A stretch of DNA of 35,157 nt from Bdellovibrionales bacterium (lineage in GTDB: Bacteria; Bdellovibrionota; Bdellovibrionia; Bdellovibrionales; UBA1609): the NCBI GenBank assembly GCA_019695175.1, contig JAIBAM010000027.1:1-35157 (forward strand), read 5' to 3'. The translations under genes and the position numbers were made by a program. The notes beneath the pieces were generated by a model. That model was not told the origin of the DNA. It saw only the letters and a list, made by a program, of their open reading frames with translations, and made no database searches. Shown here in pieces: positions 2,044 to 9,725 of this stretch (the first letter of the stretch is position 1; every line of letters starts with the position of its first letter).

Positions 2044-3013
2044 TAAGTTTGGAACGATCCTTAGACTCATATTTTTTTGAGTACCCCATGAGTGATTGGT
2101 CCTCTTTATACCCTTCCACCTGAGACCAAAAACGAATGGCCTTTTCCACGACCGTTTTAAACTCCTGTTGGTGGCTTTTACGTTTTTTCAAGTCCCAACT
2201 CAGGTCGTACCCTATTTGGTTCATGTGGTCGAGGGACCCTTGATAAATTAATTTCCCCCACTTTTGGGAGGCGACCTCAACGAAACCATCATTTTCTTGC
2301 ATTTGACTTTTATGATCAACCATTTGGTTAGAAAACTTTACTGGCCAAGTGAGTTGTTCGGGATGTACGGCAAAAGCCATACTTGCATAAACTATATGAG
2401 GTAAATCAGGGTAGCGTTCGTTGAATTGGGACATACGTTGAGGAGTTAAATCTGAGAAGGTGGGTAATTTCTTTTTTATGTCATAATTTATAGAACATAA
2501 TAGTTGATAAACCATAGGGCGGAGGTGGGGGACTTGTTCAATCAGTTCCGCTAAAGGGGAACCTTGATGTGGGCTTGAGAGGGTTAGAATGCTTGCGACG
2601 GGGAGCAAAGAATTTAAGTGATGGGCTACTGCCCGAGCAATGATTCCTCCGGCTGAATGACCTAAAAAATGGACCTTAAAATCAGTTGATTTATTTGTGG
2701 AAGAGCCAAGAGAAAGCTTTTTATAAATAAACTCTGTTGCATTTTCAATTTGTTGCTCCAATGAGCCGCAACCCATGCCTATGACTGGGATACATTTAAT
2801 TCCCCGGGAGTTTAACTGGGAAACCCAGGGTTGAAACATTGGACCTAGGGCGAGCAAACCAAAACGAAGACGTTCATCCCCGTGGGAGTTCAATCCACGG
2901 AAATAAATTACCGGGTTTTTCACTTTGAATAAGGTTTCCATTTCGGACTGGAAACTAACTCGATTTACGTCTGAATTCAATCCCCAGATTGTATTATGTG
3001 GTTTATGAGTCAA
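2018..3013 (-). CDS. Alpha/beta-hydrolase, triacylglycerol lipase-like
   Basis: A serine hydrolase of the lipase type, probably acting on an ester or lipid; the substrate is unknown. Numbered from the TTG at 3013, the nucleophile elbow is GHSAGG (S120), a likely acidic residue is D242 in NDGFV, and the histidine is H263 in LDHMNQ. The order and the NDG...DH pattern match secreted bacterial lipases. An early strand, VIYFRGLNSHG (35-45), is the usual oxyanion-loop region. No signal peptide is evident, so it may be cytoplasmic or its start may be wrong. The TTG lacks a Shine-Dalgarno sequence; the ATG at 2941 (residue 25) is an alternative just before the conserved strand. It overlaps dsbD by 26 bp and is divergent from motA. 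Confidence 0.8.
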   Translation of the reverse strand: MTHKPHNTIWGLNSDVNRVSFQSEMETLFKVKNPVIYFRGLNSHGDERLRFGLLALGPMFQPWVSQLNSRGIKCIPVIGMGCGSLEQQIENATEFIYKKLSLGSSTNKSTDFKVHFLGHSAGGIIARAVAHHLNSLLPVASILTLSSPHQGSPLAELIEQVPHLRPMVYQLLCSINYDIKKKLPTFSDLTPQRMSQFNERYPDLPHIVYASMAFAVHPEQLTWPVKFSNQMVDHKSQMQENDGFVEVASQKWGKLIYQGSLDHMNQIGYDLSWDLKKRKSHQQEFKTVVEKAIRFWSQVEGYKEDQSLMGYSKKYESKDRSKLNDEFFLRL

Positions 3014-3077
3014 AGAAGTGTACCGATGAGGAACCTGATACGGTTGTACTTTTTAACTTGTGTAACAGGAAACTCTC

Positions 3078-3938
3078 ATGGGATTTGTCGGTATTTTAGT
3101 AGTGATTGTGTGTGTGTTTGGAGGCTATCTATTAGCAGGCGGACACTTGCATACAGTTTGGCAACCTTTTGAGGTTATGATTATTTTTGGTGCTGCCATT
3201 GGTGGATTTGTCATTGCCAATCCTATGTCGACTCTGCAAATGGCTATCAAATTAGCCATTAAAGGGCTTACTGCAAAAGGCCCTGGTAAAAAGGAATATT
3301 TGGATCTGTTGCAATTGTTATTTCAATTATTCCAAATTTTTAGAAAAGATGGCCCCCAAGCAGTGGAAAAGCATATTGAAGAACCTAATAGTTCAGAAAT
3401 TTTTAAGGCCTATCCAAATTTTTTGAAAAATCACCATGCCGTGGACTTTCTTTGTGACACTATGAAAATCACACTGTCCGCAGATCTCTCCCAGTACGAC
3501 GTGGATGACTTATTGGATCAAGATATCAAAGTGGCCCATGAACAGGAGCACTCGGCTCAGCATGCCGTTCAATCCGTGGCAGATGCTCTTCCAGGGCTAG
3601 GAATTGTGGCTGCGGTCTTGGGAATTGTGCACACCATGAGTTATTTGGATCAAGGAGCGCAAAAAATTGGGGAACTGGTGGCAGCAGCTCTGATTGGAAC
3701 CTTTCTCGGGGTTTTGTTTTGTTACGGTTTTATTGGGCCAGTAGCCACCAAAATGAAAAATGATATAGATGCCGAAGGTCGTTATTTGTCCGTTGTCAAA
3801 GCGGCTTTAGTGGCGTTGCAACGAGGAGCTCCCCCTCTGGTCTGTGTGGAGTTTGCAAGGCGAAGTGTTTATCCAACAGAAAGGCCAACTTTCGAAGAGA
3901 TGGATACTGCAACAAAGGAATCAAAAAAAGCAGCTTAA
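3078..3938 (+). CDS. motA: MotA, flagellar motor stator subunit
   Basis: Forms, with MotB, the ion-conducting stator that drives the flagellar motor. Four membrane segments are visible: two near the N-terminus (about 3-20 and 31-50) and two later (about 170-188 and 198-222), around a cytoplasmic loop. The functional prolines are present as P172 in LPGLGIVAAVLG and P221 in GFIGPVA. The rotor-contact charges R89 and E97 lie where E. coli has R90 and E98. The length of 286 residues is typical. An AGGA ribosome site lies 8 nt before the ATG. The motB gene follows after 21 bp. Bdellovibrio bacteriovorus is known to carry several motAB pairs; which one this corresponds to cannot be told here. Confidence 0.96.
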   Translation: MGFVGILVVIVCVFGGYLLAGGHLHTVWQPFEVMIIFGAAIGGFVIANPMSTLQMAIKLAIKGLTAKGPGKKEYLDLLQLLFQLFQIFRKDGPQAVEKHIEEPNSSEIFKAYPNFLKNHHAVDFLCDTMKITLSADLSQYDVDDLLDQDIKVAHEQEHSAQHAVQSVADALPGLGIVAAVLGIVHTMSYLDQGAQKIGELVAAALIGTFLGVLFCYGFIGPVATKMKNDIDAEGRYLSVVKAALVALQRGAPPLVCVEFARRSVYPTERPTFEEMDTATKESKKAA

Positions 3939-3959: not shown

Positions 3960-4856
3960 GTGGCCGAAAAAGAACCGATCATTGTTGTAAAAAAAATTAC
4001 CATCGCCGCGGCCGGGGCCCATGGAGGTTCTTGGAAGGTAGCATTTGCTGACTTTATGACAGCAATGATGGCTTTTTTCTTATTGATGTGGTTATTGGGG
4101 CAAAGTGATCAGGTGAAGAAAAATGTTTCAGATTATTTTTCGACCCCCAGCGTGATTGAGTACAATTTTTCCAACTATGGTGTGGAGTTAACCTTGGAAA
4201 AATTGTTTTTGGATTTAATTAATGAGCCTTTAAAGGTTTTCCAAGAGTTTTCCCAACCCGTAGATTACACGCCAAACTTTTTACAAATGGGTTCGAAGAA
4301 CATCGTTATGGCTGAGGTGGCGGATCAGTTGGGTGATTTTGCTTCAAATATGTCCGTTAACGCCGATGAAATCATTTTGCAAGTTCCAGAACGGGTGTTG
4401 TTTAAGGGGAGAACCGCAGATCCTTCAGGGCAGTTTGCGGATGTTTTGGAGAGAGTTAAGAAAATAACTTCTGGTTTGGAGGAAGCCAATGTTTACATTG
4501 ATTCCCGAATTTATCGCTGGAGTTCAAAAATATCTGAAACCCAATTGGCTGCAAAAGTTGCAGAACATAGATTGGATTTGGTGGTATCTCAAATACAGAA
4601 AAGTTTAGAACATTCCACGGTGGACGTTTTTGGAAAAGCGGAAGATCTTCCGGGGCGAAGATTGCAGGATGGGCGTCCTGAAGAAGGTTTTATAAAGTTG
4701 AGTATTAAGCAAAAAAGTGTTTTTTCAGACGGAACTAAACCCCGAAAACTTGGGGAAGTATTTGGTTCGGGTAGCTCTACGTCCAATATTTATCATGATT
4801 TTGCCAAAAAAGTTTCTGATCGAAGAGACCGAAGCGAATCTCCGACCCAGCGCTAA
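3960..4856 (+). CDS. motB: MotB-like stator subunit with divergent C-terminal domain
   Basis: The N-terminus is a clear MotB: a cytoplasmic tail, HGGSWKVAFADFMTAMMAFF and one membrane helix with the ion-binding aspartate D31 (E. coli D32). The start is GTG, supported by a GGGAG ribosome site 5 nt upstream. The C-terminal part (about 138-252) has the length and strand-helix pattern of an OmpA-like peptidoglycan-binding domain, but the GHTD-type motif expected in MotB is replaced by YIDSRIYRW (179-187), and the later arginine-rich motif survives only as PGRRL (231-235). A hydrophilic tail follows to residue 298. It is probably a functional stator protein, but peptidoglycan anchoring may be altered. 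Confidence 0.9.
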   Translation: MAEKEPIIVVKKITIAAAGAHGGSWKVAFADFMTAMMAFFLLMWLLGQSDQVKKNVSDYFSTPSVIEYNFSNYGVELTLEKLFLDLINEPLKVFQEFSQPVDYTPNFLQMGSKNIVMAEVADQLGDFASNMSVNADEIILQVPERVLFKGRTADPSGQFADVLERVKKITSGLEEANVYIDSRIYRWSSKISETQLAAKVAEHRLDLVVSQIQKSLEHSTVDVFGKAEDLPGRRLQDGRPEEGFIKLSIKQKSVFSDGTKPRKLGEVFGSGSSTSNIYHDFAKKVSDRRDRSESPTQR

Positions 4857-4885: not shown

Positions 4886-5770
4886 ATGGTAATTGTCTTC
4901 AGAGTGGGAATCGCATACAGTGATCACATGATAAGTCGTTTCGGACCTAAAACTCCATGGAAAAAACTCACATTTGTTGCCTTAGATATTGAAACTACTG
5001 GAAAGTATCCATTGGATTCTGAAGTCTGTGAGATTGCTGCCGTAAAGTGGACTGATGGACAAATAGTAGACCAATTTCAATCACTGGTAAAACCGAATCA
5101 AATCATCGGTGAGGAAGTCATTGCTATTCACCATATTACTAATGAAATGGTGGCTCATCAGCCTCCTGTGGAAAAAGTGGTTCCAGATTTTTTAAAATTT
5201 TTAGGTGACTCTATTCCTATGGCCCACCATGCTCCTTTTGATATGGGCTTTTTAGCCTGGGAATTTGAAAAATTGCAATTAAAGGCACCGGCCAATGGAG
5301 CCTTATGTACGGCGATTATTTCTCGAAAGGCTCTTCCCCAATCTCCAAATCATCGTTTGCAAACATTGATTCGCCATTTGAATTTAACCCCTGGTGTTGC
5401 CCATCGCGCCCTTGATGATGCTCGCTCATGTATGGAGGTTGGGCTTAAGTGTTTTGAGACCATTGGTGCTGAGGCCACTTGGGAAGACTTGGTTCAATAT
5501 CAAGGTGAAAAAATTCTTTGGGAGCATTATTCGATCCATGCTTTGGAAGAACAGGAAAATATGCTAAATGTGATTTCCGCCATTCGAAAAAAAAGTCATA
5601 TAGAATTAATTTATTCTGGAGGATCTCGTCCCAATCAACCGCGTCGCCTGATTCCTGTGGGTATAGTCAGAAATGCTTTTGGAGGTTTTTTGGTGGCTCG
5701 GGAGTTGGCTGAAGAGCAAGTTAAAAGATTTTTTCTAAAACAAATTAAATCGGCTCGAGTGGTTTATTAA
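4886..5770 (+). CDS. DEDDh 3'-5' exonuclease (DnaQ-like) with C-terminal WYL-like domain
   Basis: Residues about 27-190 are a DnaQ/RNase T-type exonuclease with all acidic motifs: LDIETTG (D34, E36), HHAPFDMGF (D119) and HRALDDAR (H173, D178). This is the fold of the DNA polymerase III epsilon proofreading subunit, but the protein has an extra tail. Residues about 225-294 resemble a WYL domain: IELIYSGGS, a basic RRLIPVG segment, GGFLVAREL and a final QVKRFFLKQIKSARV. WYL domains bind ligands, often nucleic acid, in regulators. The start at 4886 has a GGCGGAG ribosome site; an internal ATG at 4928 is an alternative. The gene follows motB after 29 bp, and its stop overlaps the stop of the convergent lspA by 4 bp. 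A repair or RNA-processing role is inference. Confidence 0.85.
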   Translation: MVIVFRVGIAYSDHMISRFGPKTPWKKLTFVALDIETTGKYPLDSEVCEIAAVKWTDGQIVDQFQSLVKPNQIIGEEVIAIHHITNEMVAHQPPVEKVVPDFLKFLGDSIPMAHHAPFDMGFLAWEFEKLQLKAPANGALCTAIISRKALPQSPNHRLQTLIRHLNLTPGVAHRALDDARSCMEVGLKCFETIGAEATWEDLVQYQGEKILWEHYSIHALEEQENMLNVISAIRKKSHIELIYSGGSRPNQPRRLIPVGIVRNAFGGFLVARELAEEQVKRFFLKQIKSARVVY

Positions 5771-6732
5771 GAAGCTTCGGCACCTGTTTCCACTGGCTCG
5801 TCCTTATTAAGGGTTTTTTCATCATTTTTTGCTAATGTTTGAAAGTTAGTTTTTAAATGATGGCGCACACGTTCACTTAAATCCTCTAGGTGTTGAAAAT
5901 CATCGCCAGCACGGAGGCGAAGAGGTCGATCTTTACCTTGGAGAACATCCTCTAAAAACAATTCAAATGCATAAATAGGCCCTGCTATGCGGTGGGAAAT
6001 CAACCGTCCAATAATCAAAAGAAGAAATAGAAAACCTATGACAACGACGACAAAAGTCTCCAGAAAAGGAATTAAATACTGATCTTCAAAACCAGGGGCT
6101 TTTGAGGCTGCTAAAGCGTGAATGGAAACTTTTAAATAAGTGTAACTGTACACTCCACTGATAATAACAAAAGCCAAACCGATGGCCATGCTAACGAGAG
6201 TAAATTTTCTTTGAAATTTGGGAAGTACCCATGTTCTTTTACGTTCATTTTCGCTGGGCCAAAGTTGATCACCTTCTTTGAGAAGAGTAATAACTACCAT
6301 GCCGTAACCTAACCACTGAAAAGCATCGGCCAGATTAAAAGCAGGAGAAACGTGACCAAAAAAACGAATGACTAAAAAGTCCACGACAGCTGAGTCAAGA
6401 ATCCGATCGGTAACATTTCCTAAAATTCCCCCAAGAAGGATCGACATTCCTGAGCGAAGAACAAAAGATCTTCTTGGGAGTAAGTATTGTATGGAAGCAT
6501 AAATAGAAATTAAGAAGGCACCCCCAGTGGAAAGGGAGACAACACGAAGGAGGGGTGGAAGATGGGAAAACGCCCCTAATATAGCACCAGGATTTTTAAT
6601 GAGGACCAAACCGAAGGGGCCGTAAAATTTGAGCGAATATATATTTTGTAAGGCCCATTGTTTTGTTATCTGATCTAAAAACCAAACTAAAAAAACGGCA
6701 GCGATAATAAAGAACCAATCTTTTTTTTCCAT
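5767..6732 (-). CDS. lspA: Lipoprotein signal peptidase LspA with C-terminal HAMP-like extension
   Basis: Residues 1-155 are signal peptidase II, which cleaves lipoprotein signal peptides in the inner membrane. Visible signatures are LDQITK (D20, K24), GNVTDRILDSAVVDF with catalytic D118, and FNLADA with catalytic D136; N106, R110 and N133 are also conserved. LspA usually ends near 160-170 residues. Here there are about 150 more: a linker, a membrane helix at about 178-198, a periplasmic loop, a second helix at about 224-243, then a HAMP-like segment (about 244-295: SHRIAGPIYAFELFLEDV, LRAGDDFQHLEDLSERV). No kinase or methyl-accepting domain follows. The reading frame is continuous, so the fusion is not an artefact of joining frames by eye. 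Confidence 0.9.
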   Translation of the reverse strand: MEKKDWFFIIAAVFLVWFLDQITKQWALQNIYSLKFYGPFGLVLIKNPGAILGAFSHLPPLLRVVSLSTGGAFLISIYASIQYLLPRRSFVLRSGMSILLGGILGNVTDRILDSAVVDFLVIRFFGHVSPAFNLADAFQWLGYGMVVITLLKEGDQLWPSENERKRTWVLPKFQRKFTLVSMAIGLAFVIISGVYSYTYLKVSIHALAASKAPGFEDQYLIPFLETFVVVVIGFLFLLLIIGRLISHRIAGPIYAFELFLEDVLQGKDRPLRLRAGDDFQHLEDLSERVRHHLKTNFQTLAKNDEKTLNKDEPVETGAEAS

Positions 6733-6836
6733 TGAAATAAGTTTAATCTGAATTCATCATTGACGTCTAGTGTTCAAGTACGATCCGATTGAATATATTT
6801 ATTGGGTTTGTTTAATTGGGGAAAGAGGAAAACATT

Positions 6837-8345
6837 TTGGGGTGGTTTCATTTTTTAATTGAGATGGCACGCTTATTTTTTTTTGGCAGAGACAAGATAC
6901 TAGTCTTTAGTCTTTTGTTTAGCCTTTTATTTTGCGAAGCCGTAAGTAGCCTTGAGCCCAAGGAAGTTTCGAAAAGGTTGATCGACAAGTTAGATCAATC
7001 TAAAATTAAATCCAGTGAACTGGGGATTATGGTGGGGAAAACTCAAAATGGCTCCACTCAGACAATTTGGTCATTAAACGAAAGCAAAAGCATGATACCA
7101 GCTTCATTAACTAAAATCATAACAGCTGCGGGAATTCTGAGTGCGTTTAGTCCCAGTGATAAATTAGAAACACGATTGGTTTCTTCCGCCCCGATCAGTC
7201 AAGGAGAACTTCAAGGGGACTTGTACTTGTTGGGCGGTGGAGACCCAGGTTTTGTCTCTGAGACCATGTGGTTTTTGGTAAACGAATTGACTCGAAGTAA
7301 AATAAAAAGCATCAGGGGTGATATTGTTGTTGATGATTCCCGTTTTGATGCCATTCGCAATGATCCAAGTCGTCAGGAAGACCGAGTGGATCGCGCTTAT
7401 GATGCCCCCGTGGGAGCTATGTCCTTTAATTGGAATTCCGTAAATATTTTTGTTCGACCCGGAAATGAAGTGGGAGAATCCGGTCAAATATTTCTGGATC
7501 CAGAAAATACTTATTTTAGAACTGAGAACAAAGTTAAAACGGTACCCGGGACAAAAACACAGATTCAGGTACAACGAAAAATGGTTTCTCAAAAGGATAA
7601 ATTAACTAAAGATAAAGGGCGTGTTGAAGTTATCGAGGTTTCAGGAGTTATAGGAATACAAGCTAAAGAATTTGTGGCCTACAAAAATATTTTATCTCCA
7701 GATCTTTGGAGTGGAAATAATTTAGTTTCTTTTTTGGCACAAAGAGGAATTCAAGTTGCAGGACAAGTCCGCTTGGGACGAGCACCAACATCAGCTAAGC
7801 CATTGGCTCGGGCTGAGAGTAAACCAATGGGGTTGCTAGTCGCGGATATGATGAAGTTTTCGAATAATTTTGTGGCTGAGATGTTAGTTAAAAATATCGC
7901 GGCTGAAAAAAAATCAGTTCCGGCCCATTTAAATGAAGGGGTGGAGTGGATTCATAACTCTCTAAAGCAAATGGGTTTTAAGGAGAATGAGATTTTGTAT
8001 TTAAATCCCTCAGGTTTAACCCGTGAAAATCGAGTCACAGCCACAGCACTCCATCAATTGCTTATAAAAATGCATGAGAACTTCACTCTATTTCCTGAAG
8101 CCTTAGCGGCTTTTCCTGTAGCCGGCGTGGATGGAACATTAAAGTCACGAATGAAAAACAGTATAGCTGAAGGAAGGGTGCGCGCTAAAACGGGTTTATT
8201 AACAGGTGTGGTTGGTTTGGCTGGGTTTGGTGGAAAGACAGATGGAAGTCTTATGAGTTTTGTATTCATCTTCAATGGAAGACCCAGTCTTGGTGAATCT
8301 GCCAGACATTTATTTGATCAACTGGCGATTGAGTTGTTGAAGTAG
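6837..8345 (+). CDS. dacB: DacB-type D-alanyl-D-alanine carboxypeptidase/endopeptidase (PBP4, S13)
   Basis: Removes terminal D-Ala from, or cuts cross-links in, peptidoglycan in the periplasm. Numbered from the TTG at 6837, the active-site motifs are SLTK (S90, K93), SNN (S342, N344) and KTG (K451-G453), in the order and spacing of peptidase family S13 with its large insert between the first two motifs. A hydrophobic export signal spans about residues 21-38. The start choice rests on GAGG at 6825-6828, 8 nt before this TTG; a TTG at 6816 and an ATG at 6864 lack such a site. A transglycosylase gene follows after 12 bp. Two PBP4-type enzymes in B. bacteriovorus are known to act on prey peptidoglycan; whether this one does is inference. 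Confidence 0.93.
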   Translation: MGWFHFLIEMARLFFFGRDKILVFSLLFSLLFCEAVSSLEPKEVSKRLIDKLDQSKIKSSELGIMVGKTQNGSTQTIWSLNESKSMIPASLTKIITAAGILSAFSPSDKLETRLVSSAPISQGELQGDLYLLGGGDPGFVSETMWFLVNELTRSKIKSIRGDIVVDDSRFDAIRNDPSRQEDRVDRAYDAPVGAMSFNWNSVNIFVRPGNEVGESGQIFLDPENTYFRTENKVKTVPGTKTQIQVQRKMVSQKDKLTKDKGRVEVIEVSGVIGIQAKEFVAYKNILSPDLWSGNNLVSFLAQRGIQVAGQVRLGRAPTSAKPLARAESKPMGLLVADMMKFSNNFVAEMLVKNIAAEKKSVPAHLNEGVEWIHNSLKQMGFKENEILYLNPSGLTRENRVTATALHQLLIKMHENFTLFPEALAAFPVAGVDGTLKSRMKNSIAEGRVRAKTGLLTGVVGLAGFGGKTDGSLMSFVFIFNGRPSLGESARHLFDQLAIELLK

Positions 8346-8357
8346 GAAGGATTTTTT

Positions 8358-9725
8358 ATGAAAATAAAAATTTCTTTTCTAATTTACGAGGTATTTTTTA
8401 CTTTTTCCGTTTTGGCAGGGTCGAATTTTTCGGTCTTAACCCCTTCTTCTCCGGAAGACTTTGGAAATCTATTCTCCTCAGAGGACGCTCCCGTTCTTGT
8501 TGAACCCGCCAGGGAATCGGCACATCCTTTAACTGGAGACCAATTTTCGAATTGGAAACCCCCTGATTTTTCCGATCAGGAAAAATCTTTAGGTTATTCT
8601 CCAGAGGCATTTTCAGTCCCCAAGGGAATGGAAGAGCGAGTGGCTTTTTGGATTGATATCTACACCAAATTGACCACCGATCAGGGATGGCTTCATGACA
8701 GTAAATATGTTCATTTGGTATATGAAATGGTGGATTTTTCTGATCTAAACCAGAACAGTGTCTTATCACTTCGTCAGTTGGAGCGAAAACGGAAAGAGAG
8801 AATTAAACTGGCAAAAAAAAACATTCAAAACCGTTTGTTTTATCTTAGCAAACAATCTTCCGATCAGGGTTTAGCTGGAGATGATTTAAGGTACTGGAGA
8901 ATGTTTTCCTCTATTGATGAACCCCAAAAATTTATTCAAGCCAGTTTAAGGGGGCGATTGAGATTTCAATTAGGGCAAAGGGATCGGTTTATAGATGGAA
9001 TTTTTCAATCGGGAAGATATCTCAAAGAAATGGAAGAAATTTTTAAACGTGAGGGGCTTCCTTTGGAGCTCACAAGGCTTCCTTTTGTAGAGAGTTCATT
9101 TAATTTGAAGGCACGATCGAAAGTGGGAGCCAGTGGAATATGGCAATTTATGAGAACCACAGCCCGGGCCTATCTCAGGATGGATGCCAGTGCGGATGAA
9201 AGAAATGATCCTTTGCGTTCCACTGTAGCTGCGGCAAAAAAATTACGGAATAATTTTGAGATGTTGCAAAATTGGCCCTTGGCCGTCACTGGATACAATC
9301 ATGGCCCCTCTGGAGTGCAGCGTCTGGTGAAAAAATATCAAACAACACAACTGGCAGAACTTACAGATATTAGAAAAAACAGATTTGGATTTGCCTCAGC
9401 CAACTTTTATGCCAGTTTTTTGGCTGCAATTGCTGTGGAAAGGGAAGCTGAGAAGTATTTTGGTCCTTTACCGCGAATGTTAGAGTTGCGCGGAGTGGAG
9501 GTGCGGTTGGATAAGAACCTTAAGGTCGACCAATTGATCAAGTGGTTTGATGGTGATCAAGAGAAAGCTCGACTTTATAACCCACACTTACGTTTATCTG
9601 TCTGGCCCCACGGAGTCATTTTGGTAAAGAATTTTATCCGCATTTTGCCTGAAAAATTCAGTATTGTTTCTGAGGAGTTAAAAAATCTAAAACTTGTTCT
9701 CCAAGACAATCATTCCAGCAAGTAG
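8358..9725 (+). CDS. Secreted lytic transglycosylase, SLT/MltD-like
   Basis: Cleaves glycan strands of peptidoglycan, forming 1,6-anhydro-muramic ends. A signal peptide covers about residues 1-20. The catalytic domain (about 225-345) has the glutamate E245 in LPFVESSFN, then GASGIWQFM (257-265) and AVTGYNHGPSGV (309-320), the three signatures of the GH23 transglycosylases of the MltD/SLT type. The preceding 200 residues are charged and helical with no recognised domain. The C-terminal region (about 375-455) is short and shows no clear LysM repeats, unlike E. coli MltD. An AAGGA ribosome site precedes the ATG. It lies 12 bp after dacB, so the two murein hydrolases are probably made together. 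Confidence 0.88.
   Translation: MKIKISFLIYEVFFTFSVLAGSNFSVLTPSSPEDFGNLFSSEDAPVLVEPARESAHPLTGDQFSNWKPPDFSDQEKSLGYSPEAFSVPKGMEERVAFWIDIYTKLTTDQGWLHDSKYVHLVYEMVDFSDLNQNSVLSLRQLERKRKERIKLAKKNIQNRLFYLSKQSSDQGLAGDDLRYWRMFSSIDEPQKFIQASLRGRLRFQLGQRDRFIDGIFQSGRYLKEMEEIFKREGLPLELTRLPFVESSFNLKARSKVGASGIWQFMRTTARAYLRMDASADERNDPLRSTVAAAKKLRNNFEMLQNWPLAVTGYNHGPSGVQRLVKKYQTTQLAELTDIRKNRFGFASANFYASFLAAIAVEREAEKYFGPLPRMLELRGVEVRLDKNLKVDQLIKWFDGDQEKARLYNPHLRLSVWPHGVILVKNFIRILPEKFSIVSEELKNLKLVLQDNHSSK

Follow-up and report, generated by a model that had tools for sequence, protein, structure and literature searches.

A conserved LspA paralogue of the Bdellovibrionota fused to two transmembrane helices and a HAMP-like segment

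The window, by which we mean the whole stretch of 35,157 nucleotides of Bdellovibrionales DNA that was analysed, carries a reverse-strand gene in which a signal peptidase II (LspA) domain, a linker, a fifth transmembrane helix (TM5), a short loop, a sixth helix (TM6) and an AS1-connector-AS2 segment resembling a HAMP domain follow one another in frame. The gene lies between a convergent exonuclease gene and two divergently oriented genes of cell-wall enzymes (Table 1).

Table 1. Features of the fusion gene and its neighbours, in window coordinates.
Feature	Position	Strand	Basis or remark
LspA-2TM-HAMP-like fusion gene	5767..6732	(-)	Uninterrupted ORF, 321 aa plus stop; kept in relatives
LspA (Peptidase_A8) half, residues 1-157, four TM helices	6262..6732	(-)	PF01252 1.5e-21; Foldseek to LspA structures
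Catalytic Asp118 codon	6379..6381	(-)	Alignment to S. aureus LspA Asp118; in 113/114 distinct fusions
Catalytic Asp136 codon	6325..6327	(-)	Alignment to S. aureus LspA Asp136; in 113/114 distinct fusions
Cytosolic linker, residues 158-177, R..N/LP.FQ motif, Q174 invariant	6202..6261	(-)	C-terminal module starts here; common to stand-alone 2TM-HAMP-like proteins
TM5, residues ~178-204	6121..6201	(-)	Hydropathy core 177-195; model helix 171-207
Short periplasmic loop, residues ~205-218	6079..6120	(-)	Model; 31% mean identity
TM6, residues ~219-243, runs on into AS1	6004..6078	(-)	Hydropathy core 227-245; model helix 215-264
Divergent HAMP-like module, residues 244-305	5818..6003	(-)	Profile chain; invariant residues; superposition on Aer2 HAMP 4i3m
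PBP4 (D-Ala-D-Ala carboxypeptidase/endopeptidase), divergent neighbour	6816..8345	(+)	TIGR00666 8.7e-70
MltD-like lytic transglycosylase, conserved neighbour	8358..9725	(+)	NF008050 3.6e-18
Convergent DnaQ-type 3'-5' exonuclease	4886..5770	(+)	TIGR00573 2.7e-30; 4-base overlap with fusion gene end

Two AlphaFold2 models of the fusion protein (pLDDT 90.3 and 90.9) predict helices at residues 171-207 (TM5), 215-264 (TM6 running into AS1) and 281-309 (AS2), the last two separated by a 16-residue connector. Within the HAMP-like module, AS1 contains the motif SHRIAGP, the connector contains G266 and L273, and AS2 begins at D277. Mean identity among the fusions is 59.5% in the LspA half and 49.7% in the tail half, falling to 31% in the TM5-TM6 loop and 8.6% in the last 21 residues. 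The loop is only ~14-20 residues long and poorly conserved, and we therefore recognize no periplasmic sensor domain; nor does the window protein have an output domain after AS2, since it stops soon afterwards with only a poorly conserved tail. The anatomy proposed in the first-pass annotation, an LspA followed by a two-helix hairpin and a HAMP-like segment with no output domain, is borne out by profile matches, hydropathy and the models. Its finer layout needed adjustment: TM6 and AS1 form a single continuous helix, and the conserved C-terminal module starts already at the cytosolic linker (residues ~158-174, NERKRTWVLPKFQ) and not only past TM5.

The identity of the N-terminal half is clear from several directions. 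Residues 13-151 match Peptidase_A8/LspA (PF01252) with 77.6 bits against a Pfam cut-off of 25 (E 1.5e-21), all 46 aligned fusion members match the same family, and Foldseek relates the fold to the LspA structures 5dir, 6ryo and 6ryp (E 5e-7 to 4e-6). In Staphylococcus aureus LspA, 14 residues are highly conserved and the catalytic dyad consists of Asp118 and Asp136, the D118N and D136N variants being inactive (PMC6952399). All 14 are found in the window protein when placed by profile alignment to 6ryo and 5dir, and both catalytic Asp residues are kept in 113 of 114 distinct fusions, a retention that rules out a general pseudoenzyme. The protein thus shares with signal peptidase II (PF01252; 5DIR, 6RYO, 6RYP) the four-TM fold and the 14 conserved residues including Asp118/Asp136, but differs from canonical LspA in some 150 extra residues (2TM plus HAMP-like), in its separate branch and in falling under the lspA equivalog cut-off of NCBIfam (TIGR00077, 48.6 bits vs 73.95). 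On account of that score we regard it as an LspA-family paralogue and do not file it as canonical lspA, and its specificity may have changed.

Erosion of the LspA half was seen in four degenerate copies from small genomes (L052 from G014, L053 from G028, L054 from G002 and L055 from G013). L054, whose genome is reduced, is the one fusion in which both catalytic Asp residues are gone, with the HAMP-like motif retained; L052, L053 and L055 have lost several other LspA residues and retain the tail motif S-[HN] .. GP ... R..D.F. In these copies the LspA half is decaying, so catalysis is not always the part that is kept.

The source genome encodes a canonical LspA on another contig (G000:C15; PF01252 2.6e-41; 178 aa from the start codon, the window protein being longer by ~150 residues), which rules out the fusion as the cell's only LspA. 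Nearly every one of 59 close genomes likewise has a canonical copy (~155-220 aa, 131-150 bits), and most also have a fused copy (~300-390 aa, mostly 75-95 bits). In a tree built from 71 fused and 30 canonical domains, an unrooted test of origin with some long-branched rows, a single branch with support of 99/98 splits the fused from the canonical group. This topology fits a single origin of the fusion followed by mainly vertical inheritance, and from its sequence the window protein is most likely a catalytically competent second LspA.

Multiple LspA copies have a precedent in another predatory bacterium, Myxococcus xanthus, with its paralogues lspA1-4 (PMC8689077); the portion of that account considered here mentions no C-terminal HAMP-like fusion, and it describes extra lspA genes of the Myxococcus myxovirescin cluster as proposed resistance or back-up copies (PMC8689077). 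Given these extra lspA genes in producers and the divergence of the fused LspA, one might take the fusion for such a copy, a safeguard against globomycin, myxovirescin or other inhibitors of LspA. We consider this very improbable, as the fusion is conserved across the phylum beside cell-wall genes, the gene maps contain no biosynthetic cluster, and the HAMP-like tail would be left unexplained.

Assignment of the tail required a chain of comparisons. Pfam HAMP (PF00672) matched neither the window protein nor any of the 46 fusion members. Over the span running from the FQ linker motif to AS2, however, the tail shares homology with stand-alone 2TM proteins found in the same bacteria (hhalign E 1.9e-25). 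A HAMP profile made from some two dozen HAMP domains of relatives matches these proteins in register (E 3.9e-7), and one of the stand-alone proteins stands above the Pfam HAMP cut-off (28.7 bits vs 25). Compared directly with that profile, the fusion family aligned in full register at E 0.017; control segments taken from the fusion protein scored 0.037-0.66. The earlier description of the segment as HAMP-like is supported indirectly, by way of the stand-alone proteins, and finds no backing in Pfam matches of the fusions themselves.

Structural comparisons point the same way. The TM2-AS1-connector-AS2 topology of HAMP is present in the AlphaFold2 models (helices 215-264 and 281-309), and the HAMP-like segment superposes on Aer2 HAMP1 (4i3m) at 2.3 A over 52 residues with a moderate Z, a fit which for helical segments is supportive and no proof. 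A Foldseek search of the C-terminal model against the PDB gave nothing below E 1, long helices being uninformative, and VIA-align listed HAMP-bearing chains (4i3m and 4gn0, and receptor chains of HAMP type, for instance 9a5d and 4i5s) mixed with helical chains that are unrelated, a list that supports the HAMP reading without proving it. The likeness to HAMP (PF00672) extends to a TM helix leading into AS1, a conserved Pro, a Gly ending AS1, a connector and a D-[DE] opening AS2, whereas the fusion family differs in its own SHR.AGP and LR.GD signature, in scoring under the Pfam cut-off and, unlike HAMP signalling proteins, in having no kinase, MCP or cyclase output. Taken together, the profile and model comparisons support, indirectly and through the stand-alone relatives, a divergent HAMP in the tail.

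Conservation within the tail is strict: Q174, S246, G251 and D277 do not vary in any of the 114 distinct fusions, and P252 and R274 are kept in 113 of them. This bears on whether the tail might be a dimerization or membrane-placement device only, attached to a constitutive, unregulated second LspA. The short loop with no periplasmic sensor and the missing output domain would suit such a device, but invariance at several positions, which holds across divergent classes as well, is stricter than an anchor needs, and the related stand-alone proteins exist without any enzyme; we judge this reading unlikely.

The stand-alone 2TM-HAMP-like proteins of Bdellovibrionota (e.g. L056, L063, L067, L069 and L175) have no output domain and form a family of their own, for which we know of no function. 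They come in types of ~150 and ~200 aa that are homologous to the fusion over the whole module but differ from it in lacking the LspA half and in having other neighbours. The ~150-aa type is flanked by an S41 peptidase-like gene and a trigger factor-like gene, and the ~200-aa type lies near smpB, these neighbours being named from reading the sequences, with no profile search. Also seen were long proteins of 1388-1657 aa in which HAMP domains are repeated many times in tandem (G041:C17, G037:C19, G004:C1).

The first-pass annotation had predicted conservation in Bdellovibrionota, and this proved correct: 94 of the 99 genomes sampled from the class (own genome counted) carry the fusion and, by a count from the table of matches, about 51 of 192 sampled genomes of the other classes of the phylum have a match below 1e-30, usually in a frame of ~280-320 aa. 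A scan of named genomes gave 133 relatives, and of the best 80 nearly all bear Bdellovibrionota-type labels (Bdellovibrionales, Oligoflexia and the like). Bdellovibrio bacteriovorus has the fusion as well (strain kdesi, L115). For a few metagenome bins among these best 80 of 133 the label is broader or doubtful, and one such bin is labelled Streptomyces griseus. The fusion is missing from, among others, strongly reduced genomes of 1.2-1.3 Mb (G017, G030) and some incomplete genomes, and a plasmid search gave no match for it. The same architecture in over 100 genomes is far more than chance would give. It also refutes an assembly or annotation artefact that joined two adjacent genes by error, a practically negligible prospect even though the source genome is a draft of 56 contigs, as the in-frame fusion recurs in single-contig genomes and in B. 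bacteriovorus. It had been set down beforehand that a failure to match HAMP profiles, coupled with absence or disruption in relatives, would count against the fusion; the mismatch is partly true, and the relatives have the fusion.

The neighbourhood is conserved in part. A PBP4-family gene lies divergently upstream of the fusion in 61 of 80 relatives (the best 80 of 133), the MltD family is present in 50 relative loci, and MotAB genes and the convergent DnaQ-type exonuclease also recur nearby. A MotB-like gene lies in the window at 3960-4856 (+); its best NCBIfam match covers residues 3-65 only, and the OmpA-like region usual at the C terminus may be absent or have diverged. The housekeeping-type PBP4 of B. 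bacteriovorus HD100 is the constitutively expressed Bd3244 (PMC3276566), which need not be the same gene as the PBP4 adjacent to the fusion. Promoter and terminator scans around the fusion gene stayed at chance level. Two further families occur directly upstream of the fusion in relatives: in 21 loci an SBP_bac_5-family gene, co-directional and no more than 175 bp away (one member confirmed by Pfam), and in 15 loci a gene of the REC-GGDEF family at a distance of up to 130 bp, the two occurring together in five loci in the order SBP, REC-GGDEF, fusion. Many of the SBP_bac_5 proteins have a signal peptide ending in Cys and are lipoprotein-like (14 of 29 when a strict pattern is applied, and more on visual inspection). 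Neither family adjoins the fusion in the window; SBP_bac_5 genes are found elsewhere in the genome.

The first-pass annotation suggested that the extension could sense the condition of the envelope or recruit LspA to a partner. HAMP modules normally carry signals, and the fusion might accordingly be a sensor of lipoprotein flux. Prolipoproteins would be captured, and perhaps cut, by the LspA half, and TM5-TM6 and the tail would relay the state of the active site to a separate cytosolic protein, such as the REC-GGDEF whose gene shares the operon in relatives. Besides the usual role of HAMP, the REC-GGDEF genes at those 15 loci, the persistence of the HAMP-like motif beyond the catalytic residues in reduced genomes, and invariant AS1/AS2 positions that suggest more than an anchor would speak for this possibility. 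It is nonetheless doubtful: nearly all members have no output domain, retention of the catalytic residues in 113 of 114 fusions exceeds what pure sensing needs, and REC-GGDEF is not adjacent in the window or in many relatives. A more elaborate form, in which a dedicated LspA acts as a receptor whose prolipoprotein occupancy or turnover is passed by the divergent HAMP to cytosolic partners (e.g. REC-GGDEF), so that both lipoprotein flux and the state of the cell wall would feed into c-di-GMP signalling, seems to us decidedly speculative.

We instead favour, at a probability of roughly 0.5, a catalytically competent second LspA that would be dimeric and either tethered or regulated by its divergent HAMP. 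The fusion would have arisen once, early in Bdellovibrionota, by the joining of an LspA to a 2TM-HAMP-like module. Judging from its residues and fold, the N-terminal half would bind diacylglyceryl-prolipoproteins within the membrane and use Asp118/Asp136 to cut them just ahead of the lipid-modified Cys, while the TM5-TM6 hairpin and AS1-connector-AS2 would make the protein a dimer with a parallel four-helix bundle like that of other HAMP domains. A cytosolic partner, or a partner HAMP protein, could then place the fusion LspA or set its activity. We infer that cleavage by the fusion may be confined to certain substrates or states, with canonical LspA as the housekeeping enzyme. The best candidate for a substrate or partner is the SBP_bac_5 peptide-binding lipoprotein encoded upstream; it is not adjacent in the window or in many relatives, so it would not be the only substrate. 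That the dyad is intact argues for a protease; that the tail is invariant and persists in reduced genomes argues for a role in signalling or with a partner. The two may both be right.

The fusion is real and conserved, and it is a variant of a known enzyme family and not a new kind of system. We found no description of an LspA-HAMP fusion in the literature searched, in which 'HAMP' mostly matched 'hampered'. The general view of LspA is that of a housekeeping enzyme without regulation, and many Bdellovibrionota are predators whose attack involves envelope remodelling. A paralogue that keeps its active site and carries a HAMP-like module would point towards lipoprotein maturation that is regulated or directed by a partner, or towards a sensor of lipoprotein flux, and its retention across much of the phylum hints that lipoprotein maturation may be tethered, regulated or monitored in these bacteria. 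As B. bacteriovorus carries the fusion, removal of the gene is feasible there.

A few genomes depart from the usual arrangement. Two different LspA-HAMP-like fusions per genome were seen in G205 (L166/L167), G260 (L168/L169), G092 (L170/L171) and G034 (L016/L051). In three genomes of one genus (L153 in G177, L154 in G234 and L155 in G271) the frame continues for ~370 more residues, which begin like a signal peptide and include a CxxCH motif; this may reflect gene fusion or overlapping translation, and the extra part of L154 had no Pfam match. The only clear output-like domain that we saw is in L156 (G068, 2434-3891), a protein of 485 aa in which the fusion runs in frame into a peroxiredoxin-like AhpC-TSA domain.
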